Source: Siderastrea siderea | Lineage: Eukaryota > Cnidaria > Anthozoa > Scleractinia > Rhizangiidae | Assembly (NCBI GenBank): GCA_964030785.1 | Contig: OZ034971.1 | Span: forward strand, 32,374,304-32,438,303 | Reading direction: 5' to 3' | DNA length: 64,000 nt | In this document: positions 3,001 to 61,518 of the stretch, piece by piece | Numbering within the stretch: position 1 is the stretch's first letter | How the letters are laid out: each line of letters opens with the position of its first letter | Position numbers and translations under genes: made by a program | Notes under the pieces: model-generated | Seen by the model: the letters and a program-made list of their open reading frames with translations, nothing else | Database searches by the model: none | What the model was told of the DNA's origin: nothing

Positions 3001-6000
3001 CCTAATATTATCCACTCCGATCAGTCCGGTTTTATCAAAGGAAGATACATTGGGCAAAATGTAAGACTATTATGTGATATTATGGAATACTCAGATACCA
3101 ATAAACTCCCCGGCATTCTTCTATTTCTCGACTTTAAGAAAGCTTTCGATTCCATAGAATGGAAGTTTATAGATAAATCCTTAGAATTATTCAATTTTTG
3201 TCCGAGAATTAGAAAGTGGATATCTACTCTTTATTCAAATGTCGAAAGTGGAGTAATAAATGCAGGTTTCATGACCAATTACTTTAAAGTCTCGCGGGGG
3301 GTTCGCCAAGGGTGTCCCTTAAGTCCCTTTCTTTTTGTCATTGCAGCCGAACTTCTTGCTACCAAAATTAGACAAAGTGCACTGTGCAGGGGCTTCCAAC
3401 TTCCAAATAATAAAGAGGCGAAAATTTCCCAATTTGCGGACGATACGACCATCATAGCTAAGGATGTTGAGTCAGTTAAACAGGTCCTAGAATTAGTCAA
3501 AGAATTTGGCGCTATCTCCGGCTTGGAAATAAACCAAAGGAAAACGAAGGCTATGTGGATTGGCTCTAGAAAAGCAAATAAACAAAAAATCTTAAATTTC
3601 GAATGTCCACGCAATCCGATTAAATTTTTGGGAACACATCTTTCATATGACAACGTAAAAAACAACAACGGCAACTTTAGTCTCAAGATCCAGAAAATGG
3701 AGATCAAACTTAACATCTGGCTATCTCGGGATCTGACTCTTTATGGCAGAACATTACTTGCCAACCCTTATTATATAATGCATACTTAAAAAAGACTTTT
3801 GTCTTACTTAAAATAGACTTTTGTTGTACGTGCAATTTAAGTACATACTTAATTAGTACTGACAATATACCCAGGTACTTTTCAAAACACTTAATCAGGA
3901 CTTGAAAGATACTTTGAATTTACCTTTAAGTACATTAATTTATAAGTATATTTTAAGAACAACTGGAAGTGCACTTAAACAATACTTGTAAGAAAAGCAA
4001 AATTGTAAGTACCATTTAAGTCCATACTGTTAAGGTACTTTGAAAGAGTATGAACATGGTCTTCATGCCGGACGGTGAAAGTATGATGTTTAAGTGTAAT
4101 TTTTACTAGTTTACTTACAACTTATGGTCCAAATGTCTTGTACCATTAAATTTAAGTGAAGTGTGGTACACTTATTTTGTACTTGTAATAATAAATTAAA
4201 GTATCATTTAAGTACATACTACAAAGGTACAAAGATCATGACCGGCCTGCTGTAAGACTTTGTGTCTCTAACAGATATTCTGAATCACTGGCAGATTAGA
4301 ACATGATCTATTTTGTTATGAGCTTTTCCATCAGGTGATCAAGTTGACCATCCATCGATCCATGAATCAGCATTTCTAGTCCCCATAACGTATGTTTTAA
4401 GGTTTCACAGGGAAGTGTCAATCATCAACCCTTTAAGCTCCAATAGTGACAAAACATACAAAACATACAGGTCACGAGAATAAAGGAAATAATAACCAAA
4501 CATGAAATGTCTTGATTGTGCAAATTCTCTCAACTGATACCATAAGAAATGTGTGGAGAACACCAAAGAGAATAAGCATATTGATATTGGGGCTTAAAGG
4601 CTCAACCCTTTGGTCAACCCCAACTTGGAGGACCAGATGCTCTTCTTGCCTGGCCTTTCATGTGAAACCTCCCCCAAACAAATTGATTCCATTAGGGGCA
4701 AAAGCCCCAGGTTGTATATCTTCCAACCTTCCCATCACATTAAAGAACAGCACACAGGCCTTAGTCTCGCTCAATCCTGTTGGGAATGTGGCAGATGTAG
4801 CTGAATGGCCCAGAACAGATGTCCACCCTCAAGCACTTCTCATGAATGTTGGTCAGGGGGATCACAGAAATTCTGTGGAGGCAAATTTATAAACCCATTT
4901 TTCAAATAGTTTCAAATTTACCACTGGCACCAGTTTTGTCAAATATATGACACATAGTTTAATAACCAAAATCAAACAACTAGATTACAACAGGACAAAG
5001 TCAAATAAGGAGAGGAATCTGTGCTAGTTTAAAAATGACAAGAGGAGGAGAGTAACCCTCTTTCCTAGGCTACAATAAGGTATGCTCCTGTGCAGGATAC
5101 AAGTTTTTTGGCATTTTAATGTGGAACAGGGTACAATATTATTATAAATCTTCCTGTTTTGGACTGGAAAGGGGTATTAATTTTCCGGAATCTGGAAAGG
5201 AGATTTGCGTAGTAGTCTGGCTAAGGGTCTAGATTTACACCCTAACTCAAAAGGAGTGCATTCGGTACCCACTTAGTCATGTTTTCATGCCATGTACTCA
5301 AGGCTAGATGCAACCAAAAGTGGTAGTTTGGAAGTGCCCCTCACAGAAGCACTTCTTATCTAGAGATGGAGTCCATTGGCACACCTGTATCTATTTTTTC
5401 ATGTCTCCCCCTCCCCCCCAATGGTATGGCTTCATATATAGCATGCTCAGAACTGAGTGATGATCTGCAACTGTTTTGACTATGGTATGGGGTCAAAACA
5501 GTGTCTGCCAGTAAGAATACATTTATTCTGTACTATAAACTAACTGCAAACTGCTGGGTGTTTTTTTACAAACAAAAATAATCTGACCAGTGGGCATCAA
5601 GTTCATTCAAGTTACAACAGCATGCATTCAACTCGAAAGTAAGCTTGCACTGAATAGTGCAGCAATGAAAAGCTTTGGTTTTTCAGAACACAATTAATAT
5701 GCAAAATTATACATTTTCACAGACATTCAGCTATACTTTCTTCTCCTGTTATTGTGCATATTTCTTTTGGCTGCTGACAAGCCAAATGATTTTCACGTCT
5801 AAAGGCTGACCTCAACAGTTTGATTGCACTGTTTTCGTCATGGAATGTAAAAATATTCAGTTCAAACAAAATTAATGTCAAAATCAATTTCCAGAACAGT
5901 TAAGCTGCCCAAATGCCGCGCGTTATAGGAATGCCACTATCTTTTTTGTGTCTGACTACCTGGACCAGCATAATAAGAACATTCCGGTACCTTTATCCGG

Positions 6001-9000
6001 TCAATAGCTGGTAGAATTATATCAGCAGCGTAACAGCTTATCAGCAGAGTAATATACAGTACTGTATAGGGTACCAGCACCAAAGAACAAGTATCGCATT
6101 ACATAACCCCGTGTGAAGTCAACCCCCGTAACAACGTAACAGGGTACTATCGTGAACAAGAAAAGCCCCAGGGGCATTAGACCCCGCCGTTTTAGTCCGT
6201 CCCCTAGGGTGCAAAATATATTACGGCCACCCAAGATACGAGCCCTAAACCTGTGTAGCGAAAGACGTGACAAGTATTTGTTTGGCCGAGCGAAATCGGA
6301 GGTCTGGGGCAAGTGACCACCAAAAAAATGGAAAATAATGAAAACAAGAAAAGCCCCAGGGGCATTAGACCCCGCCGTTGTTCTCCCCCCCCCCCCCCGG
6401 GGGGTGTAAAATATGCTACAGTCAGACTCAAGATAAAAGCCCTTGCCTGTGTAGCGTAAGACACGACGAGTATTTGTTTGGCCGAGCGAAAACCGGAGGT
6501 CTGGGGCAAGTGACCACCAAAAAAAACACAAAACCACAGAAAAAAAATGGGTATTACTACACCCCGTCCTGACGACGGGTTAAAAAAGAAAAAAAAAAAC
6601 AAACAAGAAAAATATTGTGTCAATGTACCTTTGAGATGGCTTTACTCTTACAATGTGCTTGATGACAGGAATCCTTGAAACTTTTGGCAGAATTATGGTG
6701 GGATCACTTTCCAACACCTCTACCAAAGCAAAATACCTCCTGGGTAATGCACATGTGCACAAATTGTCTTGACATTCTGCACTGTGGCACATCTCCTCTA
6801 CTTTCACATAACTTAAAACTGAGCCGTAGAGTGAATTTTGGCCATCTGAAAATGCAACAGTGAAATTATTCCTTGCTGTTACCCTTTTGTAACACTTGCT
6901 ATGGTAAATAACACCCTCCAGCTGACATCTTTTGAAAATCCACATTCTCTTCCACTTGCCGATGCTATTTATGCTCCTCAGTTCATTCAGAGTGAGTGCA
7001 GATGAATTGCTCCATACTCTCTCCAAAGACCCAATAACAAATGCCCTCTCACTGATCTGTTCAGTTGCTTTCCTGTTGAAAACAAATGAAAGCCACCATC
7101 AAGTAAGTTAAAGATTCACCTACATTGTATTTCAAAAGCAACTGAATATGCTGCCTGATTGCCAGCACTGTGGCTGATAAATAGCTGTTGAGTACTGCAC
7201 TGGTAACCCATGGGACAATTTTAGTGTCTGCTATTTTGTGAAAGCATTTACAAAACTTCATTCTCTGGTCTACCAAACCCAAAAAATCAACTTGGAGTGC
7301 TGAAAGAACACTTGAACAGCTTCAACAACACCCTTACCAGCTAGTGACCTTCTTATGCTTTTCCAGGTCCTGAGTGCAGGGTAATTGTTGTGTTCATTGA
7401 CCAGTCAGAAATGCAAGGTTTATTGTTTAAATAATTATGTCTGACAGAGAACAGCAAGACTTACAAGCTACATGAAAATGTACTGGAATTAAGAAATCAA
7501 ACATGCATGCTTTTTTTCCCTAAAGGCTGTTTTGAAATTTTTTAAAACAAGTTCGATTTAACAATGATTTGACTGAATTTGCATTTGCAGTTAGAAAACA
7601 CATCTTTATCATGTACCAGTATGTAGCAAATTCATGCAATTCACTAATATTTTAAAGAATATACAATCTTCTTGTTATATCTGACCTACATACATACAGT
7701 ACAGGTCAAAGGTAAGTAGTATACAGTCTCCTCTTGTTTCTCGATGCTTGATTAGAGAGAACAGACTCGACTTGCGAGACTCGAGCAGGGTTCGACATCT
7801 ACTGAGTTGAGTCACTAGTCACCGGGCAAGTCAGCTTCAAAAATCTACTAGCCCACGGCACATTTCAGTCGCCCAGGTTCCTTACCAATTTCCTTCTTCA
7901 CTCATGTCATTTAGACCCTGGCAGTAGAACTAAAGACTTTGAAGGACCTTAATAGCTTAAATTAACGTACCAGTCAAATTGAAGCTTCAACATCCCCACC
8001 CCCCAGGTATTTGAACCTTTCAAAGTTGGCTTGTTCAAATTCCCTCCCTTCGGGGCAAAAAATCTGCTCAAATGCCCCATCAATTAGTGCTGAAATACCT
8101 CTCCTCAAAGACAAATTTTATTTTCAATCACTCTTCACGCTTTTCAGAGAGAGATATGCCGTTACGACACCTTGAAGCTTCTTTCAAAGACCCTTTTGAG
8201 AGAGTTATTCACTAACAAAAGGTGAAATTCTATCTTGTAAATCTGTCAAACCCTGCAAAAAAAAAAAAACTCACTGGTGTGTTACGCTAGAACAAGAGAT
8301 AAATCTGCTTCAAATTCCCCATGCTGCCAAAGCAACGTTCAAATTCCCCCTTCCCTGGGCACGATGCACAGTCAAAAGCCCGGGGTATGCCCGGGGGGGG
8401 GGGGGGGGGAATGTTGAAGCTTCGATTTGACCGGTACGTGAGCTAAGCCACACAGCCACAGCTGTGTACTTGCTGCAAGCTTTAAGCCCATTGTTGTAAA
8501 ACAAGTCGAAGGAACAAAATTATATTTATCTTAACGATCGAGTGACAAATGTTACGTAAACATTTACAAGAGTTAGGTAGAACAGGTCTGAAATTCGTAG
8601 CTCAGTTTTCCAAATGTTTGAATTTTAACAAACCTTGTAACTTAAAGGTTACTTTTAGAGGTTTTTTGTGCCAACTTAAATCCCAATTTACTTGAAAGGG
8701 ATGGAGGTCGTGTGGTTACCAAGCCAAGTACGTCCAGTGAAACACTGGCGATGGATGTGCGAAAGACCGAGTGAAATACACTCCACGGTTCTGCGGTTGT
8801 TTTGTTTCCGAACAATTTCCAGCAAGAATCATAACAACTTCACAATGTGATTCCAGTGTGTTCAAGGGAGTTTTAAAGGTAATTATTAAAAAAAAAATCC
8901 TCAAGTTTCTACTTGCCCACGGACTACCAAACACACAACATTTACTAGCCCTTCTTGATTTTTACTCGCCTCGGGCGACCGGGCGAGCGGAGATGTCGAA

Positions 9001-12000
9001 CCCTGCTCGAGGATCAATCGAGAACCAAGAAACTAGAGTTCTCAAGTCTCAAATATGCAAAATTTCAAAGGAAGAACAAAAAGAGTTTCGTGTGGTTGTG
9101 TAAATTATGGCACTGCCACAAAGCTCCACAATGTGTGCATAAAACAAGTGCATACTAGTTGCATGAAGCAAGCACATTTCAGAAAAACTCTGCAGCAAGA
9201 TACATGACAATGCAGAATTTATATTGTGATTAAAATGGAAAGGAAATGTGAAATTGTTTTCTAGTGCTTAATTCATATCTATACAACATTTCTAAAAATC
9301 TTCCAGAGAAATATTAAACACAATCCGCTTCAATGCAATTTACAGACATTAAAATAAACTGAGCACTTTTGGTCTTGAGTTTTCCCTTAATTGCCATGAA
9401 AACATCAAGGGCAGTGAAAGCGACACTTCTCTGTTTTGTTATCAACGGATAAAATGAAATCATCTCGAGAGCAATGTTGCAAATTGATCAAAGATATATT
9501 GAAGCATGTTTGTTGTCATGTGTTCATTAAAAAACAAATACTCTCAAATACAGAAAATAGAAATCTGCTCCAGTGTCAATGAAAAAGCGGCCCAGCCAGT
9601 GACTGCTCAACGTTCGACCTACATGTACAAGGAGCCAAAGGTACAATCTCTACAATGTTGAGGCTTGAAGTTTGGTCTGTTTGGCTGCATGCAGATTTAG
9701 TCTTAAGAGTGATCAATCAAGCGACAAGATCATCATTTTCTTGTCTCGATTCTCATGAGACGAGTCTTCTATCTCTCGAGAATCAAGAATCGTCTGACAA
9801 GAGACTGTATACTTACCTTTGACCTGTACTGTATAGTTATATCAATTTATTAAGTGCAGGGCACAAATTACCTTGTATTGTGCCCCTTGACTGTAAGGTA
9901 CTTGTAGAAGTCTTGTACACAAGGAGACAACTCAACACCATTTGCTATCTCTGGCAGTTTTTGCAGCACAGACACTCTATAAAGGATCTTGGAAAATGAA
10001 AGCACCATGTTCTGTTTAGTAGTTTTTGCTGTTGGGGGCTGTTGTAAGAATTAATGTTGCCTATTCTTTAAAATATAGGCAATTAACTTTGTCTAATTGC
10101 AATTCTACTCCAAAGACCAATAAACAAGCTTCAACATCATTCACCGGCTGTCGCCATGAGGTGCCACCGGTGTGTAAATTGGGCTGAGTTTTTTGTTCTG
10201 GGTCACTTGCCTTAGTCATCCGGTTTTGTCTAGCCCAACATTGCAGTATCTTTAAACTCCCGGCTTTCTCTTGAATGGGGGAGTGGGAGTGCCTAATATG
10301 ACATACAATGTAGTAGTGCCTGAGTGTATGTGTATGTGTTGTCTGATTTTGGAGTGAATGTATACAACGAGAAGTAATTCTGAAGAGAACAATACTTTAT
10401 TTCTTAAAAAACATCTCTAGGAAGTGTGATTCAAAAACATGTGAAATCATGGTTTTAGTGTACACTGAGGATTCCCTTTCATTCAAACAGCACCATTGAG
10501 ACCTCACGCACATACATTCCTGTACCAAGCTAAAAATCTTTCTCAAGTTAGCTAAATGTACCACTGCAGAAGAATGTTATACCTTTTAAATTATATAGCA
10601 CAATCGCCATTACAATTTATACATAATGAAACTGCATCTGCCAGAACTCTGCTTACTTGTACTTTGAACAAAATTTTAGTACAGGTGTATATGTTACAAG
10701 CTAGTCAATCACGTGAGACTGGAGAAGAATTGCAACAAAGGCATTAATTCAACCATTAATTCCTCAGAAAGGTTTTTAATAACAGTTACATAGCATATTG
10801 TACACATGTATAAGCCCTTTCCTAAGATGTAAGCCCAGCTCTGAAAACTGCTTACGGGTATACTAACTTACACCAATATTTAAATTTTAAAATACCTGTC
10901 CATCAATGTTCTGTGTACCATGGAAAAGATCACTCAGGTCTCCATTAAAATCCTCAAAAGGAAAGCACGAATTGCTCCATAAAGGCCCAGCATCTCTAAC
11001 AGTTTCAGCAAGGTGCAGTAATTGATGAACATTGTATGTTTGGAACCTCTCCCCTAAAAATAATACCGGTGTTAAATAGACTAATTCCTTCTAATGCAGT
11101 AACAAATCAATAATAATAATAATAATAATAATAATCATAACTATAACAAAATTCTCGAATCTGATTGGCTATCACCAGTCATGATTTGAGCATTAACAGG
11201 ACAGTTGGACAGTGTAATTGGACAGTGTACGCGTCATGCCTAAGTAACTGGACAGTACGCGTCAGAGCGCGCATGCTAATGGCTCAGTTACACTTGAATA
11301 AGCTTTTTTTTAAAACGTATTTCGCAAATAAAACTGTTGTCTATTCCTTCTCCGGTACGTTTTCGAATTTCGAATTTCTTTCTCGAATTTTGTTATAGAT
11401 ATGATTAATTGGTAACAGGACTTCGTGTCATCCAATTCGGTCTGTAATCATACTCGTGATTAAACAAATCGGACTCCCGCTACGCGGTCGTCCGATTTTG
11501 TTAATCACTCGTATGATTACAGACCGAATTGGACTCCACTCAGTCCTATTACCAATGTTAATAAAACATCCATGGTCACATGGTTAACATTTTCACTCAA
11601 GCAGCATTGTTAACATTACAAATATAATTAACCAAACAAAGTGATCAAGTGAAATTTGCCATAACAGGGCTTGAAAAATACTTGAATTCCAGCTTGCCCT
11701 TAGGACAAGAAGCTCTCAAATATTGGTTGCCCGGGGCTGTTGCATCCTTGAATTAGTTTATGACTTACTTTGAAGATGACCTGCCTGGGCCCTTGCCCAT
11801 CGGGCAAGTGAGCATGAAAAGTTACTTGCCCGGCAGGAAAATCTACTTGTCCCAGATGACCGGAGGGACTTTTTCGAGCCCTGCATAACTGCTAATACTC
11901 ATTCATTGCTTCCACATTCACATGACAAAAAGAAAAAAAAGAACAGGACTGGATTATGACATGACTTACCATAGTACCCTGGAACTTTAGCACAAAAAAG

Positions 12001-24000: not shown

Positions 24001-27000
24001 GGAAAGAAAAAAGTCAGTGGCCTGATGCAATGAGAACGAGAGAGATGATTGTTGATGAAGTCTCCGAACAAGATCCAGAAGTAAAAAGGGGAGTCACCAT
24101 GGCAACAGCAGCATCTGTACCAGAAGTAACGCTTGTGGATCGCATTGAATACTTTTCAGACTGGTTTCGTGCCAAGAAATCTGTTGCGCTCTGCATTCGT
24201 TACATACGGAAACTGAAACGTCTAGTGGAAAAAAAGAGGAGATCTTCGTGTGGAGAACGTCCACCAAGTCTCAATGAAAGAGAAAGGAACACAGAAAGTC
24301 ACCCTTTAACAGTGGAGGAATTACAGCACGCTGAAACTGTTATAATCAAGGCTATCCAAGCCAAGGCCTTTAAGAATGAAATCAAGTCACTGTCAAAGAC
24401 TCAAGAATTACAAGATCTCCAAGGAAGATCCATGCCAAGAAATGCAACATCACTGCAAAAACTCGACCCGTTTTTAGACCAAAACGGTGTACTTCGCGTG
24501 GACGGCCGTATAAGACGGGCAAACCTGAAAGAGGATATCAAGTTCCCCATATTACTTCCAAGAGACGGTCATATCACCAAGCTACTGGTCCAGTACTTCC
24601 ACAAGATATGCAAGCATCAGGGAAGAACAACAACGCTCAATGAATTAAGATCAAATGGCTACTGGATCATCGGCGGTACCTCTTCGGTATCGCACTACAT
24701 TCTTAGTTGTATAAGATGTCGCAAGCTTCGAGGCCCCGCCCAATCCCAGAAAATGTCTGATTTGCCAGAAGACAGACTTCACCAAGCTCCACCATTCACG
24801 TATTGCGCCGTGGATTATTTCGGGCCTTGGATCGTAAAAGACAAGAGAAAGGAGTTAAAAAGATACGGCGTCCTCTTTACATGCATGGCATCAAGGGCCA
24901 TACACTTAGAGGTCGCGCACAGTCTCGAGACAGATTCGTTTATTCAAGCTCTACGCCGCTTTATCTGTCGTCGAGGTCCCATTCGACAGATGAGAAGTGA
25001 CCAGGGTACAAACTTCGTAGGCGCTAAGAAAGAACTTAAGGAAGCCCTTAGCAAGCTAGACCAAGACAAGATAGGCAAGGAGCTTCTCCAGGACAATTGT
25101 GACTGGTTCAGCTTTAAGATGAATGTTCCCTCAGCCAGCCACATGGGAGGTGTCTGGGAACGCCAGATAAGAAGTGTACGTAATGTACTGTCGGTGCTAC
25201 TGGATGATAATGGAACCCAACTCGATGATGAGTCCCTCAGCACATTCATGTGTGAAGCAGAAGCTATCCTCAACAGTAGACCCCTCACGGTGGATGGCCT
25301 ACGAGATCCAGACTCCTTAGCCCCCCTTACGCCTAACCACTTGTTAACGATGAAATCTAAGATCGTACTTCCACCTCCAGGAAAATTTCAGGAGGCTGAC
25401 AAGTATTCAAGAAGACGTTGGAGACGTGTTCAACACCTCGCCAATGAGTTCTGGTGTCGTTGGAAGAAAGAGTTCCTCCAGTCCCTTCAGCTACGTCAGA
25501 AATGGCTGAAGCCTCAGCGAGACCTAAGAAATGACGACATTGTGCTGATCAAAGATGATTGCCTTGCGCGCAATCACTGGCAACTCGCCCGTGTCACAAA
25601 GGCCAACCGTGATGAAGACGGCCACGTGCGCACAGCGCAGCTCCTCCTTGCAGATCCTTACATCACCTCAAAGGGCGTGCGTACAAAGCCAGTACGACTG
25701 CTAGAGAGGCCAATACACAAGCTGGTGTTGCTGATGACAGGAAGCGAGACTGAGGAACAAGAACCGGGGTGTATCCCCGCCAAGGAGCCATGAACTTAGA
25801 ACAAGAACCGGGGTGTATCCTCGCCAAGGAGCCATGAACTTTCTATGTAGTTTTAAGCTAGTTACATTTTAGTTAAGATTTGTGAAATTTAACAATTTCA
25901 GGGGAGCCATGTAATGACCGCTGTATGGTCTATTGTAGTCTAGGGTTAACCGCATATGTTTCCGTTTATTGATACAAAGAACAATTAAATCGTTTGTTTG
26001 ATTTTCTGCTCTTAAAGCACGTATTTAGTTAAGTTCGTGCAGTTGATTCCACGCCTTCGTATTGAACACTAAAAAGAAGTAAGAAAACAAGAATTAAGAC
26101 AAGAAGCAAGCCACAAGAGGCAAGCGCAGGACTGATATGTAAGTGAAAACAGTTCTACCTTTAGTTTTCGATCAAGTTTAGAAGTTTATTTTCGCCTTTT
26201 ATTTTGCTTTGTAAATAATTGCATGACTTAGCCATAGTGATTTTTCGGAAATAAGTCGACATTGTTACTTTTCGTGTTAGCTTCGTTTTTGCCTTGTTTT
26301 TAGTCATCGGTTAGTTTAGTTCTTTGCTAGGGCCTCCCTACTAGGCTGTCGCATCTCATTAGACTTTCTAATTAAGTTAGAATTAAGTTAGCCTTTATGT
26401 GCTTCGCTACTTGTGGGAAAATTGCCACGTGATTAACTAGTTTTGCACGAATCAATGATTTACCTTTAATTAGTTTTAAGCTTATATACATTTTATGTTA
26501 ATCGAATTTCAGTTTACGGCTTTCGATGGTTGTACAACAATTAGATGTCAAGGGAATAAAAGAATTGTGTTCTACATCTGAGTGTTTCGATCACGAGCCC
26601 GTAGAATAGTCCTTAAATATTCGAATCAAGACCGGCCACGACACCTCTTGAAACTCTTGAGAGTCGCCCGCCGCTACAACTACCAAGATCTTAAAGAACA
26701 AGCGTCTTGCTACGCATTATGGACACCAAACAGAGTGTATTACCCTGCTGTTGTCGTAAAGATAAGTGGTAAGCACTAATTAATTTCTCTATCTTATTTC
26801 TGAAGTCTGGGAAAAGTTTGCTGAATTCACATCTTTTGGAGAATAAAACTTTCAAAATGTCAGGTTTTGCTTCCTTAGGCTCAATTACGGAGCCGCTTTT
26901 CGGGAAATGAAAACGGCAATTAGCAAACTGAGCGGTGACTATATGCATGACTATCAGTCAGTGGCACAAAGGAAAACCAACTTTATTACATTTAGGACCA

Positions 27001-30000
27001 AAACGCCAGATTTTTCTATCATTTTGGGTTGGGAAAAAAAAAACACCGTTACACCGAGTTGTAAAGGATCAAGCTCCTGATCCTGCAACTCAATGGCGCG
27101 AATGACTGTCGGCGCGAATATGTGTATTCCCGGATTCCCGGATGCAACGAAGTGAGCCCGCAACACCGCGAGTGGTTCTTAGTTGTGGCCCCCAGACTGC
27201 TCGCTGCATTTCTCGCTGCATCTTTTGTAATCTATGTTTTGTACGACATTTTCCCTTTTAAACCCCTAACATCCAGCAGCGTGTAAATGTGTGTGGCTTA
27301 AAACTGTGAATAAGTGTGCATCCAGTGTTCATATAAGCTAGCTATAACGTATAACAATACCTTTACTCGTAATTTCACTACAGAAGACAAGGAGGAGCTA
27401 CAGAAGCTCAAGGCTAAGCTTGAGAAAGCGGCCAAGAAGAAAACAACACCAGAAGTCACCGCAGAAATCCCTCAAAAAGGTAACAAAAAGTTTTGCATTT
27501 CTTTCACAAAAACGAATCTTGAAAACTGCTCTCTTGTTCGGAAAACAGCTAGAGCTTTCTTGATCACTGAGAGCCACAGAAGCTACACAAACATCTCCAA
27601 GTGTATCCGCAGTTTATGTTTCCTATTTAGAGCATTTTCCAAGCTATTAATTATTACTTTCCAATTCCTGCAAAAAATTCAAAACACTTGAATGGCACAC
27701 ACACACACAAAAATCATTTCACGCCTAGAAAAGCGAAGTAATGACTCAAGTTTTGGCCAGATAGCAAAGCATGCAGTTCTACAATGACACCAAACTCCGG
27801 CTGCCCTAGCTATAATTTATAACTTCGCTCGAATTAGTTTAATTTATACACAGGTACAATACTAAACCACTTAAGATCTAGAACATGATGTAAGTACCTT
27901 CAAGCTGTTAATTAATTAATTCTCTTATGTTTTTTCAACATTTTACATGATGCATTAATTAAATTAATTACAAACTTAGAAATTAAGAAATGTGTGATCT
28001 TTGCAAAATTCATAGAAGCTGATATTGGTATTTGTTTGATTTCTACATTGATTCAGGTGCAAAAGAAACGCCATGCACCAAACAAGGTGAAAGCAGGAAA
28101 AGGAAAAATGAGGACACCAAAAAAACAAAAGAAAAAAGGCAAAAATCTGAAAAGAAACAGAAGAAGAAATCATCAACTGCAAATGAGAAGAAAAGGGCCG
28201 AGAAGAATTCTGAATTAACAAAAATAAAGAAAAAAAACAGTGAGCTCATCAGCAACATTCTTGCTGATGCAGACAGCAACATTCATGCTGATGCAGACAG
28301 CAACATTCATGTTGATGCAGGTCAACAAAGCAGTTTCATTGCTATATCTGACACTGAGGAAGCAGATCAAGCAGCTGATGTTATTAAGTGCACATCTCCT
28401 GAATGTGAGGCAAAAATTAATCAACTCAAAGAAAGAATCATGGCCCTAGAGAAGCAAGGTAAGATTTACTAGCACTAAGACGTTTGGCAAATACATTAAA
28501 TGCCCATGGATTTTTAAGTAATAATAAGTGAAGGAAATGAAAGCTGTAATGATCAAAATTTCCCAGTACTGTGGACTGTACAGGTCTCAAATTATTTCTA
28601 CTGTGTCTAATAGTTTGTCGTTAGGAGACCAGAAGTCTAGTATATTTGTATCACATTAATCACTTATTTATGATGTGACTATAAATAAATTTATTGAGTG
28701 ATAATGTTTTCCTGTGTATATAGTTTCTGATCAACATCGTGATGTACCTGGACAGCTAGCTCATGGTGAAGTAACAGAGAGCTCCCCCCAGTTTGGGAAA
28801 TTTAAAGATAGAAACACAGCAATAGAGCTTGGGGTAAGTTCAAACAGTGGAATACTCAATGCTGATCAGCGTTATACTGATTAAAATAGCTAGCTGTCAT
28901 TATTCTATTTTCATTACAGAGAAAAATAATAACTTAATTTTCAACATATGATCAGACATTACATGCCTCTGTTGGCATGGGTAGAAATAAAATTATTGTC
29001 CTGACCAATTTCTGATCAGCTAGCAACTGGCTCACAAGGCCTAATTAAATAGAACCACTGTTAGGAAATTACATGAAAGTTGAAACAAGAATAGTCAAGC
29101 ATAGTTATTCCTTTAAGTTTTAGTTGCCAGGCTAAAAATTGCTCTGTAGAAAGTCCAGAAAGTTTCATTCATGACCCAGTTAAGAGTGCACTACATCTCA
29201 GAGGCCGGCTGATGTTCCTGTTATCACAGTAATGCTGGCAATTTTATAGTCAATCAGAGGTGCTGTCAAGTTTAGTTATTGTTATGATTTGTAGAGATAG
29301 ATAAATACACATTTGCCTTCAACAAGAGTTTATTCTGAAGTGAAATTACATGGCACGTGATTAAGACAACTCATGTGATAACAGCAATTACACAGGACAA
29401 CCAATCATAACAGTTTTTATTTCATTTTTTTCTTGATAGTGGGTGGAGATAGCAACTGGAGTGTGGATTGATAAAATTGTTCTGAATGCTTGTGTCAAGA
29501 GCAGCAACTCAAGATCAAAAGTAGCCCTCAAGCTACTTAACAAATTTTACCCTAATCTCGAGTCAGTGTTAACTACAGAGAAGGGCCTAAATGATCTTGA
29601 TCAGGATGTAATAAATGCTATTGTTGGTAAGTGAGGAAAAGTCTATTTGTGCACATTAATTATAAGTTATCTTTGAGACTGTAAATTAAAATCAGCAATT
29701 TTTTTGGATGGCTGGGTTAAGGGTGAAGCCCCCTTTTGTTACTGTGCATACGTTCTGCGCATCTTGGGGATGGTCCGAAATATTAAGGTTTCTTAAGGAA
29801 TTTGCGTACTAATACAATGGTATTTTTGTGCGGTTTATGACTATGTGCATGGAAAAAGTAGATCTAAGCAAGATGTAATGGAATATCCAAAAAGAAAATT
29901 GGGGGTAACCTCATACAATTTCTAGAAGCTAGATGTTCAAAGTTTTTCACTACTGGCAAGTGTTGATGGAAGCTTAAGGTGGCCGAACACAGTTTCCTTG

Positions 30001-33000
30001 TACTTATGCGTTATTCATCATCATTTTCAAACCACTGGCAGTTGGGCAGCCAAAATTGGCAAGATCCAAGTTCAACTGAAAAAGATTTTGATATGTTTTA
30101 TTGGACAGAGTGCCGTTGCCATGGCACAGTCGTTAGATTTTTTTCCATCATTTGTCTCTAGAAAACTCAGAAAAATGCTGGCCTGTTGACACTGGTCTCG
30201 TGACATTTTGACAAAGAGATCTTCTGTAATTCTTTGTTTTGCATTTTAACGTTTTCTGAACATGTCCTCTGTCAGATTTCAATTTTTGTTTGCAGGCGAG
30301 TTACGCGTGTTCTGAACTATTATTCTACCGAATTTCATGAAATTCTAACGAGCGGTTCTTTAGAAATCAGTGCATTTCTACGAAACCATACAGTCACAAT
30401 TTTCTGGTTAACTGCGCATATGTGTTGCATTTGAGAGGGTTCTAGATCCATACAAGCAATCTTAGAAAGGCAATAGTATTACCTTTAATACATTGAAAAA
30501 CAAACGTTTTTCAGACATAACAAACTGTTTGATTGTTAAGACAGAAAAAAAAAACGCTTGCACAATCTTCACTGAACAAAACGAAATGATCGCTGTACAG
30601 GTGCCATGTTTGTTTTTCTTAAAACTTAGTGCGTGCGCTAATTCGCGTCAGCAGTACAAATTGTAGAGCGCGCGCAAACTGTGTTCAGACACCTTAAAAC
30701 AGACGTCAGAAGATCTTCGCATGCCCATGTGCAGTTGTGTTTCAGAAAAGATAACTACCCGGCAAAGTTATGTTACAAAATGGATGGTAAACAGATCAGC
30801 GTGGACTATTGAGTTATGGATGTACTTGGGAGGTTGGCTTAGCACTCAATTAAGAAGCTAGAGATGCTTTTGGCTATCGCCTCAAATGACTCTTACACTT
30901 CTTTCGTGCTTACAAGCAACCTGCCACATGCATCCATAACTCAATAGTGCATGCTGATCCGTTTACCATTTGGTAAAGAGAGCTAAATATTTTTTGAGAG
31001 ATAAATGCGTGCTTCGTGTCACCATAAGTCAATTAATTCACTTAATTGTGCACCCATTACCAACCAAATCCATGCACAGCTAACCTGAAACCATTTGTTC
31101 ATTTTAAGCGCTGTCAGGACCTGTCATTTTATTATGTTACTTCACCTGTTAATATTTTTGTTTGCTGAATTTTTATCTCTTCACTTTCAGGGTTTTCTTT
31201 GGTGTGCAAATTGGAAATTAAAGTAGATCCAGAAAAACCCGCAAAACATACACATGTGACAGAGGGTCAGATACGGGCAGCCTTGAGGAAAAAATGCTAC
31301 GACTTGGCCTTCTTGGCAAAAAATCCAGATTACCACAAAGGTATCTTAAGGCTTATATTAATAATTTTGTGATCCTATAAAGATTCTTTTCTTTGATCAG
31401 TGTGGAATATTAATTTTTGGAATATACATTTTTAATCCAAGGGCTCCTGTGAGCCAAAAAGTGAATGCATGATGCAGCTTTGCATGCACATCTGCATGAG
31501 CTACAAAAAAATTGGACACCTTGGTAACAACAAATGTGACTGAAATTTGGCAGGGCAAAACAGCTGTTACCTCCTCTTTTTTATCCCTTATTGTATCACT
31601 TGTGAAAAGACTTGAGTCATCTTATAAATTTTGTGGTATAGATCGACAAATTTCTCAATATTCTAGTTTCCGAAAGAAAGTGAGATCTGCAACAATCTGA
31701 AAAGTGCATACGCACAAAAGATGGCTTCATGATTGATCCTTATGGAAGATGAAAACATGACAGATCAAATATCAAATTATCCTTTTCTTATTCCCTCCAC
31801 AGAAAAATACCAGCAAAGGAAGCTCACGGGCAAAACTCAGGGACAGTCAGCGGTTTGAAGTTAATTGCATCATGCAATAATTTGTTGAAACTCTTGAACA
31901 TAAGAAAATTAACTAAGAGCTTGAAGGTTATAATTTACAAGCTGTTTAAAATATGTTCGATAGCACAGTTATAAGTTTAATTCCAGCATCTTAAGTGATT
32001 TATTATTGTAAACTATTGGATGAATTAATGCATGGGGTTTTCAGCTAGAGAGCTGGGTTTCTTACTATATTACTCAGTACCTCTTTTAATGGGGAGGCAT
32101 CCTGTGGATTATTTTGAGCATCAACTGTGCTTTAATGCTTGTGGGTTGTATTTACCGCCTACAATCCACTGTATACCAAGGATTTACTGAGGCTTTTTTT
32201 GTGCCAAAGGTCCAGGGCATTATGGTAAGACATCATATGTCGTCAATTTTTTTCCTTTTTATCAAGTGAATGTGGAAGCAATGAAAGAGTGTTGTTCAAG
32301 ACAGTGTTCTGAGTTTATAACAGGAATTTGAAAGAATTACTAGCTTGCAAAGCAATAAGCATAAGCTTCCTTCATTTTTGCCCCTGTAGAGTAAGTCAAA
32401 ACTAAAGCTCAACAATTCAATCTAAGTTCATATTGTATCATTATAGGAGAATCCTTTTTGTGCAGTAGACTGTTTTTTTCTGAAGGTTTAAATTGCAATC
32501 CATGTGGTTGATAACCACTGTAATTTCTTGCCCCTTTAAATAGTGGGTAATATATAATCTATACAATAATGGATGCATGTATATACCTGTGAATTAAAGC
32601 AACTGTTTGTTTTCGTTTGTTAATGTTTCTTGCAGTGGCTACAGCTAGTAACTCTTTCTCTTTTGAGAGCTGAGCTGCAACTGTAAAAAACAGCTGCTTT
32701 CAAAAATGCAAGTTAGTCAGTTAGTTGTCGTATTTGAACTGCCAACGTGATTAATGAGTGCTGCAAAACAGTGCATTTACATACATTATTGAAATTTAAG
32801 TCTATTTAAAGTATGGGTTAAGTGATTTTTAAGATCCCTCCAGTTCTGCATTCTAAGTACATTTAAAGGATTTTAAAAGTATATTACAAGAACATTTAAC
32901 TGCTGTGATTTAAGTATGCGGCCCATATTTATTTGCTGCAGGTGCGGCCTCTGGCAGCCGGTTCTGTAATTTAAAGGTGCATGAAGTCATATTGAGAACT

Positions 33001-35593
33001 TTTTAAAGTGCACTTTAAGTTGTTATTTTAAGTGTATTTTAAGTATGTTTTAAGTACATTTTAAGCAGGATTTAAGTGTTTAAACAGTTTGGTTTCAGCA
33101 CAACTTAAGAGTTTCAAAAGTATTTTTTAAGTCCTTCAAACGAGTGTTTCAAGTACTGTAATTAAAGTACGATTTAAGAATCATTTTAAGCCTAATAAAA
33201 GTACTATTTAAGTACATTTTACGTCTGTTGTTTTAAGTACATTTTAAGTATTGTTTAAGTACAGTGTATTTTTGTAAGGGAAGTCGCTAGGAATTTCTCA
33301 ACTAATTTACTCGGCCTCAATGCTCTCTGTTCCGGAGTCAATCATTCAGCAAGTCCAAAGTAAACTTTTCGCATTTTTGTGGAAAAACAAAAAGGATAAG
33401 ATCAAACGTGAGGTGCTCTATTTGCCACTGTCAAAAGGAGGCTTAAAGTTACCATGCTTTGGTACAATGGTAAAAGCGTTACGATTAAGTTGGATCAGCA
33501 GATTCTTACTCGGGTCAGATGAATCATGGAAAGCAATTCCAAAATCTTACTTTACCAAACTTGGCGGGCTTCCCTTCATTCTAAAATGCAACTACAACAC
33601 GAAAAAACTTAGCGAAAAATTACCCACTTTCTATAGAGAGCTGCTAGACTATTTCGCTGATCTGCGAAATAATTTCGAGTATATGCACCAAAAAACGTTT
33701 ATTCTGTGGAATAATAAGGACATAACCATTGAAGGAAAATCTATCTACTGGAAAGCTTGGTTTGATAAAGATATTCACTTTGTCCAAGATCTTCTAAACA
33801 AGAACGGCAATTTCCTCTCGCTATCTGAACTCAACGACAAATACAAACTGAAAACCAATTTTTTGAGATATCAGCAAATCATCTCCGCAATACCAGTATA
33901 TATACGAAATGAGGCTTCGCAATCTCTCATTACACGACGACTTTCTGAACAGGATGATAATTTGTTTCAGCTTTCAAAAGACAAAGTGTTAATCCTTCCC
34001 AAAATGCGATGCAAGGACTACTAACAATTATTCCTAGAAAAAAAAGACAAGTTACCAACCGCAAGAAAAACATGGTCAGAAAAAAATGAAGTGATTGCAG
34101 ACAATTGGGAAAAAAGTACAAATAATATATACAAAACAACTAAAGATAACAAGCTGAAACAGTTCTCATTCAAACTTTTGCACCGTATTCTCATCACCAA
34201 AAAAGAACTTCAACGCTATGGAATTGTCAGTAATAGTGAATGCGTGGAGTGTCACGAACCAGACTCCCTTGAACATACCTTCATGGAATGCACATCCTCT
34301 CTTAAACTATATGAAGACATTTTAAATTGGTTTAATGCACAACACCACACGAACATCAACCCCACTGTCGCTCAGATATTATTGAACTTCTGTCAGTTAT
34401 CACCTGTGTCAAATTCACTTCTTTTCAGAAAAATCTCATTGCTCCTACAGCATGTGAAGCAATATATTTATGCAAACAAATCATTGAATAAGAATTTGGA
34501 CAGGGCAGAATGCATCTCAAAACTTGACAGAACATGGAAAATCAACAAGATAGTCTAAAACGATTTGATTGTGCTTTCCCCAGCCTTCGCTCCAATATTA
34601 TTTACTTAATTATTTAGTTACATATCCTTATTGCTTTATCGTAATTAGTTATGGCACTTTGTTAAACTACTACTAATACTTTAACTCCACTGTATTTTAT
34701 TGTGTATTTTTTTTGTTTGCAATAAAGTCTATTTAAAAAAAAAAAAAAAAAAAAGGATAAGTGGGTCATGGAAAGCTTGCTGTTGTTCATGTCACACCAC
34801 AAATGCACAAGTGGGCTTCGGTCGGTTCCACTTGAAGTGGCGTTAGCAAATAACACTGAATAGGATGTCACACCAGAAACGTTACCTCAGCCTCAAAAAG
34901 ATTTGTCAGTGAAAAATGATTATTGACAAATTGTGGGTTTCATCGATCCGCTATTACGATGTGAACGCATGTACAATTATTTTGTATACCTTTGGACTTT
35001 TGGTATTAGGCGATGCAATGCTAGTTAGCAAAGTTGTGCTTCGTTCAAATTCGGTTATGCACAGCATAAAAAAGATAATTTTTTACTTTGATTTAGAGAT
35101 TAAAGTTCGAACCGCACTCGATTGCTGGGGTACCTGCGGTAAATTATACCCGCTCACATCGTCTTTCGCGAGACAGTTTGGCCCCAGCTATGCTCGATTA
35201 TTTTGCCAGTTCCATCTTTTTTCGTCTGAACTTTATGGTTTTCTTTGTCTGTTGATTTTTTTATTTTTAGAAGAGCACACCGCTAAAGAAGATCTGTTAA
35301 AAACAGACACCTGAAACTGCAATATTTGACTTCGTCAACTCACTGTAAAATGTCTGGCATGAAACCAAAGCACTTCCCGCGAAAAAAAGAACCAGGGATT
35401 TAATAGATTAGACTGGTCTGTGTTGCTACTCTCTGCCTTCAAATAATAACGCAGAATCAAACAACAATAGCATTTTGCGGCTATTACCTTTAAAATCTGC
35501 CTCCACTGGGTCGAACAGCACATGGCCGGTTACTTTGTTCCTAGTTCCTTCGAACAGCAATTTTCCTATCCACGCATCGAATACGTCATTCAT
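32..35593 (-). CDS. Small two-exon hypothetical gene, split near its stop by the LINE
   Basis: Candidate exon 1 is 35593-35488 (starting MNDVFDAWIGKLLFEG), with donor GTAATA. Exon 2 starts at 34885 after an AG acceptor and reads VSGVTSYSVLFANATSS, then LVHLWCDMNNSKLSMTHL up to the LINE target duplication at 34756. Across the LINE the frame continues into the left flank and reaches TGA at 34-32. Splice phases agree (phase 1). The product would be about 80 aa of unknown function. An upstream minus-strand open frame (35860-35672) may be a further part separated by a frameshift. The family was not recognised; this is a tentative gene model. Confidence 0.35.
120..1014 (+). pseudogene. LINE ORF1 protein, frameshifted
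   Basis: ORF1 of the LINE would encode the RNA-binding chaperone that packages the element RNA. The first part (120-539) is charged and has a long coiled coil at about residues 55-125, rich in K, E and L. The second part (625-1014, another frame, open from about 500) resembles the RNA-binding and C-terminal domains of L1 ORF1 proteins (Transposase_22 type), with a segment reading LEQYTRKNSLEI followed by an SHRIRRK motif. The two parts are joined through a run of A residues near 489, where one base change shifts the frame. It ends at a TAA at 1012-1014, about 350 bases before ORF2. Confidence 0.7.
1360..3774 (+). pseudogene. LINE ORF2, endonuclease and reverse transcriptase part
   Basis: This is the N-terminal two thirds of the LINE ORF2. 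The apurinic-like endonuclease shows LSLNVRGL, CLQETY, a GDWNVTL motif near 1793 and a later SNAPDHKAI. A conserved acidic position in the SRIDFFL-type motif reads N here (near 1980). The reverse transcriptase (about 2730-3774) shows KNNKTPG-type, GFIKGRYIGQN, FLDFKKAFDS, GVRQGCPLSP and the catalytic FADD box near 3433. The frame is broken by a shift near 1622, a TGA at 2360-2362, a shift near 2560 and a TAA at 2731-2733. The coding frame stops being LINE sequence at 3774, where the CACTA-like element begins. Confidence 0.85.
3775..4235. repeat. Left terminal and subterminal repeats of the CACTA-like element
   Basis: The first 460 bases contain many copies of TTTAAGTAC or its reverse complement and variants (TACTTAA, TTTAAGTCC, TTTAAGAAC), in both orientations. 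Arrays of short subterminal motifs are the usual transposase-binding sites of CACTA elements; that role is inferred here. The same motif dominates the other end (32850-33280). Confidence 0.8.
4240..6150. other. Left arm of the CACTA-like element, no coding sequence seen
   Basis: Between the subterminal repeats and the tandem repeat at 6154 no convincing exon was found. Short open frames, for example at 4512-4892, lack protein-like composition and recognisable motifs. The last exon or the 3' UTR of the transposase gene could lie here. Confidence 0.4.
6154..6527. repeat. Two tandem copies of a roughly 186-bp unit
   Basis: The segment starting GAACAAGAAAAGCCCCAGGG at 6154 is repeated from 6340. 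Both copies contain GCATTAGACCCCGCCGTT, TGTGTAGCG, TATTTGTTTGGCCGAGCGAAA and GGTCTGGGGCAAGTGACCACC. The second copy has a run of C followed by G at 6386-6407. The minus-strand open frames here are a by-product of the repeat. Confidence 0.85.
6580..18034 (-). CDS. CACTA/EnSpm-like (Tnp2-type) transposase, 10 exons, one frameshift
   Basis: Exons on the minus strand are 18034-17854, 17367-16516, 15414-15173, 14656-14544, 14235-13907, 13379-13109, 12167-11970, 11053-10896, 9987-9872 and 7072-6629. Nine introns have GT/AG ends and phases that agree. The product is about 970 aa. The N-terminal 340 residues are acidic with a Cys motif (FYCPSSACKAYIG, then CNMCMGE). The catalytic half shows DGVRVVKS with WPVYLVINELPPSER, LDMTADAPARSMWL with CGKCKEPG, VVDWMHCVCEGVV, and YNVHQLLHL, GPLW, FEDFNG and HGTQ. 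These match the DDE core of animal Tnp2-like transposases. One extra A in the run at 15365-15374 breaks the frame in exon 3. The last exon is uncertain: read-through from exon 10 reaches a stop at 6582. The start at 18034 could instead be 18073. Confidence 0.82.
7697..9831. mobile_element. TA-flanked (Tc1/mariner-like) non-autonomous element in a transposase intron
   Basis: The left end CAGTACAGGTCAAAGGTAAG is repeated inverted at the right end (up to 9831), with homology over about 30 bases including TACAGTCTC. TA dinucleotides flank both ends (7695-7696, 9832-9833). It lies in the intron between exons 9 and 10 of the CACTA-like transposase and holds a hAT-like element at 7786-9005. No transposase was seen in it. 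Confidence 0.75.
7786..9005. mobile_element. hAT-like non-autonomous element, 1.22 kb
   Basis: A perfect 15-bp terminal inverted repeat (CAGGGTTCGACATCT) bounds the element, flanked on both sides by CTCGAG (7780-7785, 9006-9011), a possible 6-bp target duplication. Since CTCGAG is itself a palindrome, it could also be part of a longer inverted repeat. Internal subterminal sequences near both ends contain GGGCGA/TCGCCC-type motifs. No coding sequence was recognised. Confidence 0.72.
11141..11398. mobile_element. MITE with CTATAACAAAATTC termini
   Basis: The 14-bp sequence CTATAACAAAATTC at 11141 recurs inverted ending at 11398. The element lies in a transposase intron just right of a (TAA)n microsatellite (about 11111-11134). 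Its interior contains repeats of GGACAGT and ACGCGTCA. Confidence 0.65.
11408..11556. repeat. 149-bp near-perfect palindrome (foldback element)
   Basis: ATTGGTAACAGGACT at the left is matched by AGTCCTATTACCAAT at the right, and pairing continues inward through CCAATTCGGTCTGTAATCAT, GTGATTAA and ATCGGAC to a short CG-rich loop (GCTACGCGG). It would form a long hairpin. The symmetry suggests a mobile foldback unit. Confidence 0.8.
11665..11883. mobile_element. hAT-like MITE with 5-bp duplication
   Basis: The ends are CAGGGCTTGAAAAA and TTTTTCGAGCCCTG in inverted orientation. CATAA flanks it on both sides (11660-11664, 11884-11888). The interior has several TTGCCC/GGGCAA motifs in both directions. 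It is located in a transposase intron. Confidence 0.72.
12827..12876. repeat. 50-bp AT-rich hairpin
   Basis: CCATGAAGTAATTTGCTT at the left pairs with AAGCAAATTACTTCATGG at the right around an AT-only centre. It lies in the intron between transposase exons 6 and 7. No function is assigned. Confidence 0.7.
14657..16515. other. Intronic sequence of the transposase gene
   Basis: Apart from exon 3 (15414-15173), this stretch appears to be intron. No further protein-like exon or repeat structure was recognised. Confidence 0.45.
18035..18362. promoter_or_regulatory. Shared intergenic region between divergent transposase and BEN genes
   Basis: The inferred start codons of the minus-strand transposase (18034) and the plus-strand BEN gene (18363) are 328 bases apart. 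The interval is richer in CG dinucleotides than its surroundings. A bidirectional promoter is inferred from this arrangement; no TATA box was identified with confidence. Confidence 0.45.
18363..31858 (+). CDS. BEN-domain protein gene carried by the CACTA-like element, interrupted by BEL
   Basis: Eight exons: 18363-18414, 18661-18731 joined to 26684-26768, 27384-27479, 28057-28458, 28724-28833, 29440-29626, 31191-31340 and 31803-31858. All introns are GT/AG and phases agree; the coding sum is 1209 bases, 402 aa plus stop. The N-terminus (residues 17-70) reads like a small chromatin-reader-type domain (LVKYIRDG, then ALWTPNRVYYPAVVV). A very basic, Lys-rich stretch and a short coiled coil follow. 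Exons 6-7 form a BEN domain, a DNA-binding fold: VEIATGVWIDKIVLNACV, SRSKVALKLLNKFYP, GQIRAALRKKCYDLA. The BEL element splits exon 2 in frame. No other inactivating change was seen. The product is probably nuclear and DNA-binding; a role in transposition is inference. Confidence 0.8.
18732..19500 (+). repeat. 5' LTR of the BEL/Pao element
   Basis: 769 bp, starting TGTAATGACC and ending CCGCCGCTACA. It contains GGGAATAAAAGAATTG near its right end, a plausible poly(A) signal region. Confidence 0.95.
19572..25793 (+). pseudogene. BEL/Pao gag-pol polyprotein with one in-frame stop
   Basis: One frame runs 19572-25793, interrupted only by TGA at 23079-23081. Order of parts: a charged N-terminal region with coiled coils (to about residue 330); a gag-like DUF1759 region from about 345; zinc knuckles (CLLCQRNHSLEEC near 580, CFGCLEKGHLSKSC near 615); an aspartic protease with LLDNASDTTF near 705; reverse transcriptase from about 950, with FYVDDGL near 1150 just before the stop. 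After the stop come RNase H (FSDATNKGYG, WTDSKVILGY), the integrase zinc module (H-H-C-C, 24560-24720), the integrase core (CAVDYFGPW, SDQGTNF, GGVWERQ) and a C-terminal DUF5641-like part. The stop falls shortly after the YVDD box and would separate polymerase from RNase H and integrase. Confidence 0.93.
25755..25842 (+). repeat. 44-bp tandem duplication at the 3' end of BEL pol
   Basis: The unit starting GAACAAGAACCGGGGTGTAT occurs at 25755 and again at 25799, differing at one base. The first copy contains the last codons and the stop codon of pol; the second lies in the 3' untranslated part. Confidence 0.9.
25910..26678 (+). repeat. 3' LTR of the BEL/Pao element
   Basis: 769 bp, same termini as the 5' LTR. 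Differences seen by eye are a C for T in GATTCCACGCC, an A for C in AAGTCGACATT and a C for T in GTCATCGG. Confidence 0.95.
30778..30976. mobile_element. Foldback/MITE in a BEN-gene intron
   Basis: ATGGTAAACAGATCAGC followed by ACTATTGAGTTATGGATG on the left recurs inverted on the right (CATCCATAACTCAATAGT, then GCTGATCCGTTTACCAT). The arms are about 55 bp and imperfect. It lies in the intron between exons 6 and 7 of the BEN gene. Confidence 0.7.
31859..32849. other. Right arm of the CACTA-like element downstream of the BEN gene
   Basis: Apart from the duplicated exon fragment at 32045-32300, no coding sequence was recognised between the BEN stop codon and the subterminal repeats. Confidence 0.4.
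32045..32300 (+). pseudogene. Inverted, partial copy of transposase exon 7
   Basis: The plus strand here matches the minus strand of about 12150-11890: shared words include TATTACTCAGTACCTCTTTT, GATGGGGAGG-like and CCTGTGGATTATTTTGAGCA, then the donor site and about 60 bases of the following intron. The copy has small deletions and stops and encodes only a fragment (MGRHPVDYFEH). It lies downstream of the BEN stop codon, close to the right end of the CACTA-like element. Confidence 0.8.
32850..33280. repeat. Right terminal and subterminal repeats of the CACTA-like element
   Basis: This segment is a dense array of ATTTTAAGTA and TTTAAGTAC units, often 10-15 bases apart, ending in GTAAGGG at 33280. 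It mirrors the left end and supports the element boundary. Confidence 0.82.
33283..34558 (+). pseudogene. LINE ORF2, C-terminal part after the insert
   Basis: This segment continues the ORF2 frame interrupted at 3774: GRTLLA on the left is followed by KSLGISQLIY on the right. It carries the region downstream of the reverse transcriptase, with the LPLSKGGLKLP motif common to this LINE group, and a C-terminal cysteine/histidine knuckle (C-x2-C, then H and C, near 34229-34290). One in-frame TAA is at 34022-34024. The ORF ends at 34558 and is followed by a 3' UTR of about 170 bases, AATAAA and poly(A). Confidence 0.85.
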
Positions 35594-38441: not shown

Positions 38442-39192
38442 ATGAGTTTATTCAAGCCGCCCTCAACGCTAAGTCTAGAGGGAAATGTTGCAGACAATTG
38501 GCGCAAGTGGAAACAGCGATTTCAATTGTACATGAAAGCTTCAGACTCAATGAAGAAACCCGAGAAGCAACGCGTCGCCATATTTCTTCATCTCATCGGA
38601 GACGATGCACTTGAAATTTACAACACCTTCTCGCTATCGCCTGCAGTGGAAAAACTCAACGTATTATTCCGAAAATCTGAAGAGTATTGCAACCCCAGAC
38701 GGAACATCACCTTTGAATGCCACAAATTCTTCACTTGCGTTCAGCAACCAACTGAACACATCGATGAGTAAGTCACAGAGTTTCGTACCAGAGCGAGCAC
38801 GTGTGAATTTGGCAAATTGTGTGAGAGTCTAATTCGAAATAGAATCGTCCGTGGAATCTCTTGTAACACCCTGAGAGAAAAGCTACTCCAAGAAACCGAA
38901 CTGGATCTTCAGAAAGCTATTGACATGTGCCGAGTTTTCGAAATGCCAAACGAAATCGATCACTGAAGAACCGAAAATGTGGATTATGTAAACAAGAAAG
39001 CAGCGCCACGAAAATTCCCGCCAAAGGCTCACGGAAAGAAGAAGACTGGTCCCACAACCGCTTGTAAAAGATGTGGAACAGTTCATGGTCCGAGAGAATG
39101 CCCAGCCTTTTGGAAAAATCTGTCAAAAGTGCAAGAACGGCAATCATTTTGCTTCTCAGTGCTTATTGAAAAATGTCCACCTCGTGGAAAGT
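38442..39192 (+). pseudogene. Gypsy gag
   Basis: The frame starts MSLFKPPSTLSLEG and encodes a gag-like capsid region (WRKWKQRFQLYM, IFLHLIGDDALEIY) followed by zinc-knuckle cysteines (CKRCGTVHGPRECPAF, then CQKCKNGNHFASQC). In-frame stops are at 38769-38771 and near 38963, and a one-base frameshift near 39105 separates the two knuckles. Confidence 0.8.
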
Positions 39193-46074: not shown

Positions 46075-46386
46075 TATTGAGAGCTGGCGACCAGAATTTC
46101 ATAACTGGTCGCCAGCTGGCGATTAACTATTTCAGGCCACGATAATAATACAAACAATAACTTTGATTTTCAGCCAAATCGATTACAAATAAAATTCAGG
46201 GCCGCCAGCCAATTGGTCACTTACCTTTACGTTGCTTTTGAATTTTAAAACCGATTTCCCTGTTATTATAAATCCGCCACAACGTTTCACAGCTACGATC
46301 AGTGCGAAGCTTCGCCGCCATGTTTTTTCAGCGGTTTCCCATAGCATAGGTATTGCGGGCGCACGGGCCACGTGCGTTCTTTCGCC

Positions 46387-47327: not shown

Positions 47328-47387
47328 GGAAAAGATGACCATTGCCGTCCACAAAAAGGTAAAAAGAGAACGGCAAAATGTGCTGAG

Positions 47388-61040: not shown

Positions 61041-61330
61041 AATCAAATGCAAATGCAATGAAATGTAAAACAAAAAGCAAAGTGAAAACCAAAGTCAAAC
61101 TCGATTCAGATTAAAATTAAATGAATTGTTAAAAGAGAATGAAAAACAGAATCTAAGTTAAAAGTTAAAGTCAATTAAAATTGAATACATTCTGAAAAGA
61201 GAATGCAAAGCAGAATGTAAGTGAAATTTAAATCAAATACAAATGCAATGAAATGTAAAACAATAAGCAAAGTGCAAATCAAAGTCAAACTCGGTTCAGA
61301 TTAAAATTAAATGAATTTTTAAAAGAGAAT
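61041..61330 (+). repeat. AT-rich direct repeat, two copies of about 100 bp
   Basis: The sequence around AATGCAATGAAATGTAAAAC through TCAGATTAAAATTAAATGAA at 61041-61140 recurs at 61230-61328 with few changes. The sequence between them contains related AAAGAGAATG and GTCAATTAAAATT motifs. Confidence 0.8.
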
Positions 61331-61345
61331 CCAAAACAAAGCTAG

Positions 61346-61417: not shown

Positions 61418-61518
61418 GTGCCAAACCCACGCCCAGGCCTCCCCAACCAACTACTCCCATAAACCCAAGCGCGCGTTTGCTTGGGTCCGCCATTTTGTTC
61501 AGGACAAACAAGACAAAC

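Follow-up and report, generated by a model that had tools for sequence, protein, structure and literature searches.

The window, a 64,000-nucleotide stretch of the Siderastrea siderea genome (contig 6, positions 32374304–32438303 of an 831-Mb genome), contains a transposon of 29,516 bp (3765–33280) with two predicted spliced genes in divergent orientation. We interpret it as an animal CACTA/EnSpm element of the TRC type, a cut-and-paste transposon that uses two proteins of its own, and assign this interpretation a probability of about 0.72. One gene encodes a tnp2-type transposase. The other, gene 2, probably belongs to the element as an accessory gene and, by analogy with plant elements, is a candidate TnpA analogue.

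Boundaries, insertion site and size of the transposon

The transposon starts with CCCTTA and ends with TAAGGG, a perfect 6-bp terminal inverted repeat, and lies between two copies of the dinucleotide AA (3763–3764 and 33281–33282). The insertion breaks the reading frame of a LINE, identified by eye, at position 3764. When the LINE flanks were joined with one AA and 3765–33280 was left out, the frame was open across the joint, which supports AA as a 2-bp target-site duplication. The preliminary description had already used this frame to fix the edges to the base; its right edge at 33280 was correct, while its left edge at 3775 was placed 10 bases away from the actual position 3765.

Two nested insertions account for about 10 of the 29.5 kb. 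The larger is an LTR retrotransposon assigned by eye to the BEL type (18732–26678, plus strand), inserted at the acceptor of gene 2 exon 2 and flanked by an ACTAC duplication. Its LTRs (18732–19500 and 25910–26678) differ at 3 of 769 positions, and this low divergence suggests that the break of gene 2 is recent. The second is a probable nested insertion at 7694–9834 with terminal inverted repeats, of which 25 bp are perfect. Without both, the net size is 19,423 bp, in agreement with the original size of about 19 kb proposed earlier. Palindromic, MITE-like inverted repeats were also observed in introns at 11132–11556 and 30784–30969.

Further mobile element traces were seen elsewhere in the window. 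Remnants of a Gypsy-like retrotransposon, recognized by eye from reverse transcriptase and RNase H motifs in open reading frames, occupy 38992–41912. The region 46345–49891 is possibly another two-gene transposon: it contains two neighbouring open frames, one matching an OTU protease and the other a hAT-like transposase, each below threshold (22.1 bits against a cut-off of 23.3, and 20.7 bits against 21.4, respectively). An open frame at 61315–62340 gave a sub-threshold match to an integrase core (rva_4, 23.1 bits, cut-off 26).

Transposase gene

The transposase gene was predicted on the minus strand (18034–4761) with 11 exons (18034–17854, 17367–16516, 15414–15173, 14656–14544, 14235–13907, 13379–13109, 12161–11970, 11053–10896, 9987–9872, 7072–6629 and 4872–4761). 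The junctions are canonical and phase-consistent, and a single frameshift is located in exon 3, at or near an A10 run at 15365–15374. Exons 2–11 were backed by tblastn with relatives, and the last exon was located using the C-termini of those relatives. A tandem duplication with a unit of approximately 180–190 bp and 82% identity lies directly downstream of exon 10 (6155–6525).

Pieces of exons 3–6 matched Transposase_21 (PF02992) in Pfam with 31.1 bits, above the cut-off of 28.6. Together with the CCC ends and the target-site duplication, this match confirms the earlier assignment to the CACTA/EnSpm superfamily with a tnp2-type transposase. The protein contains, in this order, the motifs NTDGV, LDMTADAPAR, GCGKC, NVHQLLH and FPFEDFNG, and an alignment with 15 relatives showed conservation of NTDG, D.PA, C(2)C, D.MH, H(3)H and FE. 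An acidic triad is thus present with C(2)C and H(3-4)H between the second D and the E, the catalytic residues being assigned by homology. The definition of the triad and of the C(2)C and H(3-4)H motifs follows PMC12730594.

A protein database search with the part of the transposase after the frameshift yielded no fewer than 205 relatives with E ≤ 0.001, with only the best 7999 candidates scored; 120 of the 205 were listed. Among the matches listed, the best named relatives belong to Acropora, Montipora and Exaiptasia. A tree was built from 34 rows, the window transposase and 33 of the 120 listed relatives, and the window transposase fell within a 12-row clade with support of 100/100. Five of the 11 other rows in this clade carry names, and we take all five genera to be anthozoan; the remaining six are without names. 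A second Montipora protein and a protein of the hydrozoan Clytia were placed outside the clade. No transposase relatives were found in viral_contigs or genome_contigs. The PF02992 profile gave 127 matches in the coral's own genome, many of them in long open frames. The transposases of the window and of the contig 13 element described below were not among these matches, the probable reason being the short, split exons of both genes.

Structure of gene 2

Gene 2 (18363–31858, plus strand) was predicted from the DNA with 8 exons (18363–18414, 26679–26768, 27384–27479, 28057–28458, 28724–28833, 29440–29626, 31191–31340 and 31803–31858) and 380 codons. The two spliced, divergent genes of the preliminary description are recovered, with 11 predicted exons on the minus strand and 8 on the plus strand, while its coding sum of 402 aa gives way to 380 aa in the predicted model. 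The spliced frame contains one stop, the final one, whereas the other two frames contain 18 and 33. Its codon usage correlates with that of the transposase at 0.64, compared with 0.41 and 0.50 for the other frames. Apart from the acceptor of exon 2, which the BEL element displaced when it inserted, all junctions follow the canonical GT/AG rule. Between the start codons of the two divergent genes lies an interval of 328 bp (18035–18362) that may serve as a shared promoter region.

The predicted protein is lysine-rich and, by eye, coiled-coil-like; its conserved C-terminal domain corresponds to exons 6–7. A 24-bp tandem repeat in three copies, in frame, was observed in exon 4 (28250–28321). Two word-based searches of limited sensitivity found no relatives of gene 2 among 5.8 billion proteins, and none were found in viral_contigs. 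A Tudor-like match of the N-terminus was weak (E 0.026–0.045, below cut-off) and was rejected. As expected for a TnpA-like gene, gene 2 lies inside the element beside the transposase, both in the window and in the divergent element on contig 13.

Relation of gene 2 to BEN-domain proteins

Gene 2 had been described initially as a BEN-domain protein, which would act as the TnpA equivalent of the element. This label was not retained, as Pfam, the PDB sequence search and most profile tests were negative and three BEN controls scored. The whole protein gave no match to the Pfam BEN family (PF10523) at E up to 1, and neither its C-terminal domain nor that of the contig 13 relative gave one at E up to 10. 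In these searches, the filters drop most matches above E of about 0.1, and the BEN cut-off is 23.2 bits; the BEN controls, namely BANP, BEND3 and a segment of BEND5, were found with 34, 71 and 62 bits, respectively. A PDB sequence search returned no match for gene 2. With respect to the five-helix BEN fold, AlphaFold models of exon 6 alone were of low confidence (mean pLDDT 59 and 55 in two models), and the first of them had no significant fold match in the PDB.

Profile and pairwise comparisons gave a divided picture. With the full five-sequence BEN profile, the gene 2 score was equalled by 549 of 5000 shuffles and 84 of 1390 natural segments, and a test of the two gene 2 proteins was equalled by 740/5000 and 466/5000 shuffles. 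Smaller profiles were more favourable: without BEND6, gene 2 scored 4.3 bits (reached by 42 of 5000 shuffles and 2 of 1390 natural segments), and without BEND5, 2.8 bits (57 of 5000 and 18 of 1390). These small profiles are weak, with the left-out BEND5 and BEND6 scoring only 3.7 and 4.1 bits, so the negative result for BEN is not final. An hhalign comparison of the gene 2 family, including both relatives, with BEN gave P = 0.004 and a probability of 8.5%, and another hhalign comparison gave P = 0.025 and 1.9%. One BEND3 segment aligned to gene 2 with a score equalled by 18 of 500 shuffles, against 53/500 for the other BEND3 segment and 106/500 for BANP. The BEND5 segment showed a gap-free match around GVWI that was insignificant, being equalled by 1093 of 2000 shuffles. 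Two early BEN positives (0/500 shuffles in a pairwise test and 3/2000 with a profile) were discarded since the consensus had been composed after the query was seen.

Some structural resemblance was also noted. A hairpin followed by helices is predicted for exon 6, at low confidence, in an order that would suit a BEN domain, and the stretch LLGLFYPKEEL...LDQDVIEAI of the contig 13 relative resembles BEN by eye. Weighing these points, we regard a BEN-like gene 2 as a real possibility with the odds against it, and the same holds for a BEN-domain protein in the role of TnpA. Among the papers listed by searches of the open literature, none was seen to tie a BEN domain to a CACTA/EnSpm element.

Subterminal repeats and proposed mechanism

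The preliminary claim that the same subterminal motif occurs at both ends was substantiated. Allowing at most one mismatch, the left subterminal region (3765–4250, 486 bp) contains nine TTTAAGTAC-like sites, six on the plus and three on the minus strand, and the right region (32770–33280, 511 bp) contains 12, of which 11 are on the plus strand and one is on the minus strand. These counts were reached by none of 500 dinucleotide shuffles at either end, and two neighbouring internal stretches contained no sites. Most sites point the same way at the left and the right end, so the arrangement is not mirror-imaged. Subterminal arrays at both ends are a feature of the CACTA/EnSpm superfamily.

The DDE chemistry of the transposase superfamily leads to the expectation of cleavage at the CCC ends. 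In the mechanism that we propose, the transposase would cut at the short CCCTTA ends, and the gene 2 protein would recognize the subterminal array, as TnpA does in plants. By the same analogy, the gene 2 protein may be required for transposition, and it could assist the reaction, relieve silencing, or both. The model for these roles is TnpA in Spm, as outlined in PMC1636069.

Relatives of the transposon in the same genome

A search of the genome with the 511-bp right end found two copies, the one in the window and one on contig 2 (82% identity), and gene 2 exons lie next to both. Copies with the same ends but no gene 2, which the preliminary description had named as a refuting observation, were thus not seen in this right-end search. 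With the gene 2 protein as a query, 11 matches were obtained among 61 scored candidates: six in the window, four on contig 2 and one on contig 13. All three loci are in or adjoin element ends, and a transposase is present at two of them, the third being the broken copy on contig 2.

At the contig 2 locus, gene 2 exons are followed by the right end in the same order as in the window; exons 7–8 and the outermost bases are missing. No transposase match was found there in 29265001–29304463, and the remainder to 29309000 consists of N. A further difference concerns a stretch downstream of gene 2 in the window (32058–32293) that repeats transposase exon 7 with its flanking sequence (11894–12150) in inverted, decayed form (~90% identity outside gaps) and could be a trace of gap repair. 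It is missing from the contig 2 copy, which is without the segment corresponding to 29950–32511.

The contig 13 element is complete (3402252–3414152, 11,901 bp). Its inverted repeats agree at 17 of 18 terminal bases, starting with CCCTTG, and are flanked by a putative AG duplication. The transposase, on the minus strand, was recognized in nine stretches with 40–74% identity to that of the window; one of the nine contains a stop, and that stretch probably crosses an intron. A relative of gene 2 lies on the plus strand in divergent orientation, with 8 exons and 410 codons. It can be aligned with the window protein throughout, although the first half aligns weakly, and exon 6 shows 48–51% identity. 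By inspection, with no shuffle control, the ends of this element are rich in CTATTTA and CTATGTA. A subterminal motif that differs from that of the window element fits co-evolution but proves nothing.

On this evidence, the gene pair is older than the split of the two very different transposases, and for this reason a recent random passenger is unlikely. The earlier argument that gene 2 is not a random passenger probably holds: the pair recurs on contig 13 with its orientation unchanged, and the single further right end that the search found is also accompanied by gene 2 exons. A captured host gene carried in the transposon would nevertheless agree with the introns that gene 2 keeps, and the capture of host gene fragments by CACTA elements is described in PMC8978399. 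Recent capture is difficult to reconcile with a pair shared by transposases whose stretches are only 40–74% identical, with the position of all three gene 2 loci at element ends, and with the absence of a gene 2 homologue in the protein database by word-based searches of limited sensitivity; we consider the captured gene improbable. An old two-gene host locus that came to lie by chance between unrelated terminal repeats is very improbable indeed: although a single complete copy of the window family was found and its transposase has a frameshift, the LINE frame is exactly restored when 3765–33280 and one AA are left out, and contig 13 repeats the layout within its own CCC ends and its own duplication.

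Comparison with known systems

BEN-domain proteins (BANP, BEND3, BEND5/6) resemble gene 2 weakly in motif order, by eye, with no significant match in Pfam, the PDB or the full profile. PIF/Harbinger and other two-gene transposons combine a transposase with a separate gene for a DNA-binding helper. Their transposase is unrelated to that of the window element.

Plant CACTA/EnSpm elements (Spm/En), as described in PMC1636069 and PMC8978399, resemble the window element in three ways: the transposase is of the tnp2 type, direct and inverted repeats fill several hundred bp of the subterminal regions, and there is a second protein, TnpA. Database searches with gene 2 gave no sign of similarity to TnpA. 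They differ in having CACTA instead of CCC ends and a 3-bp instead of a 2-bp duplication, and the window genes are divergent. In this respect the window element does not follow the plant type, which is defined by CACTA ends with a 3-bp duplication. Animal TRC elements (SmTRC1 and relatives; PMC1636069) are described as having a CCC core, duplications of 2 bp and a second protein that evolves rapidly and for which TnpA-like DNA binding is proposed. The window element shares with them Transposase_21, the CCC core, the 2-bp duplication and a poorly conserved second protein; CCCTTA/TAAGGG with AA in the window and CCCTTG/CAAGGG with AG at contig 13 both follow the TRC pattern. Two differences stand out against the same account: the second protein of SmTRC1 arises by alternative splicing of one transcription unit, whereas gene 2 is a separate divergent gene of 8 exons, and the SmTRC1 inverted repeat measures 54 bp, compared with a perfect 6 bp in the window and 18 bp with one mismatch at contig 13.

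Two features of the combination put forward earlier as undescribed are thus not new. CCC ends with 2-bp duplications have been known for animal TRC elements since 2006 (PMC1636069). As for size, CACTA/EnSpm elements of 16–20 kb, with 4–5 ORFs, are already in print (PMC6431247), and a soybean CACTA element of 20.5 kb is reported. What appears new is that the second gene is separate and divergent and that it is conserved together with the transposase in two distant elements; the open literature searched yielded no description of such a gene.

More speculatively, anthozoan TRC/CACTA elements might carry a second gene dedicated to the element and kept while the transposases diverged deeply; its fast-evolving and perhaps BEN-derived product would bind the subterminal repeat proper to each family. 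Such a protein would be the animal equivalent of TnpA, of independent origin, and host chromatin proteins could possibly derive from it. We offer this wider proposal tentatively and think it rather unlikely as a whole.

In the 2006 TRC paper (PMC1636069), a TnpA-like partner was proposed from the rapidly evolving spliced product of one species, and experimental verification was called for. No answer was found in the later open literature consulted. Because a single genome holds two diverged elements that share the separate second gene, each apparently with a subterminal motif of its own, this question becomes testable by swaps of proteins and repeats.
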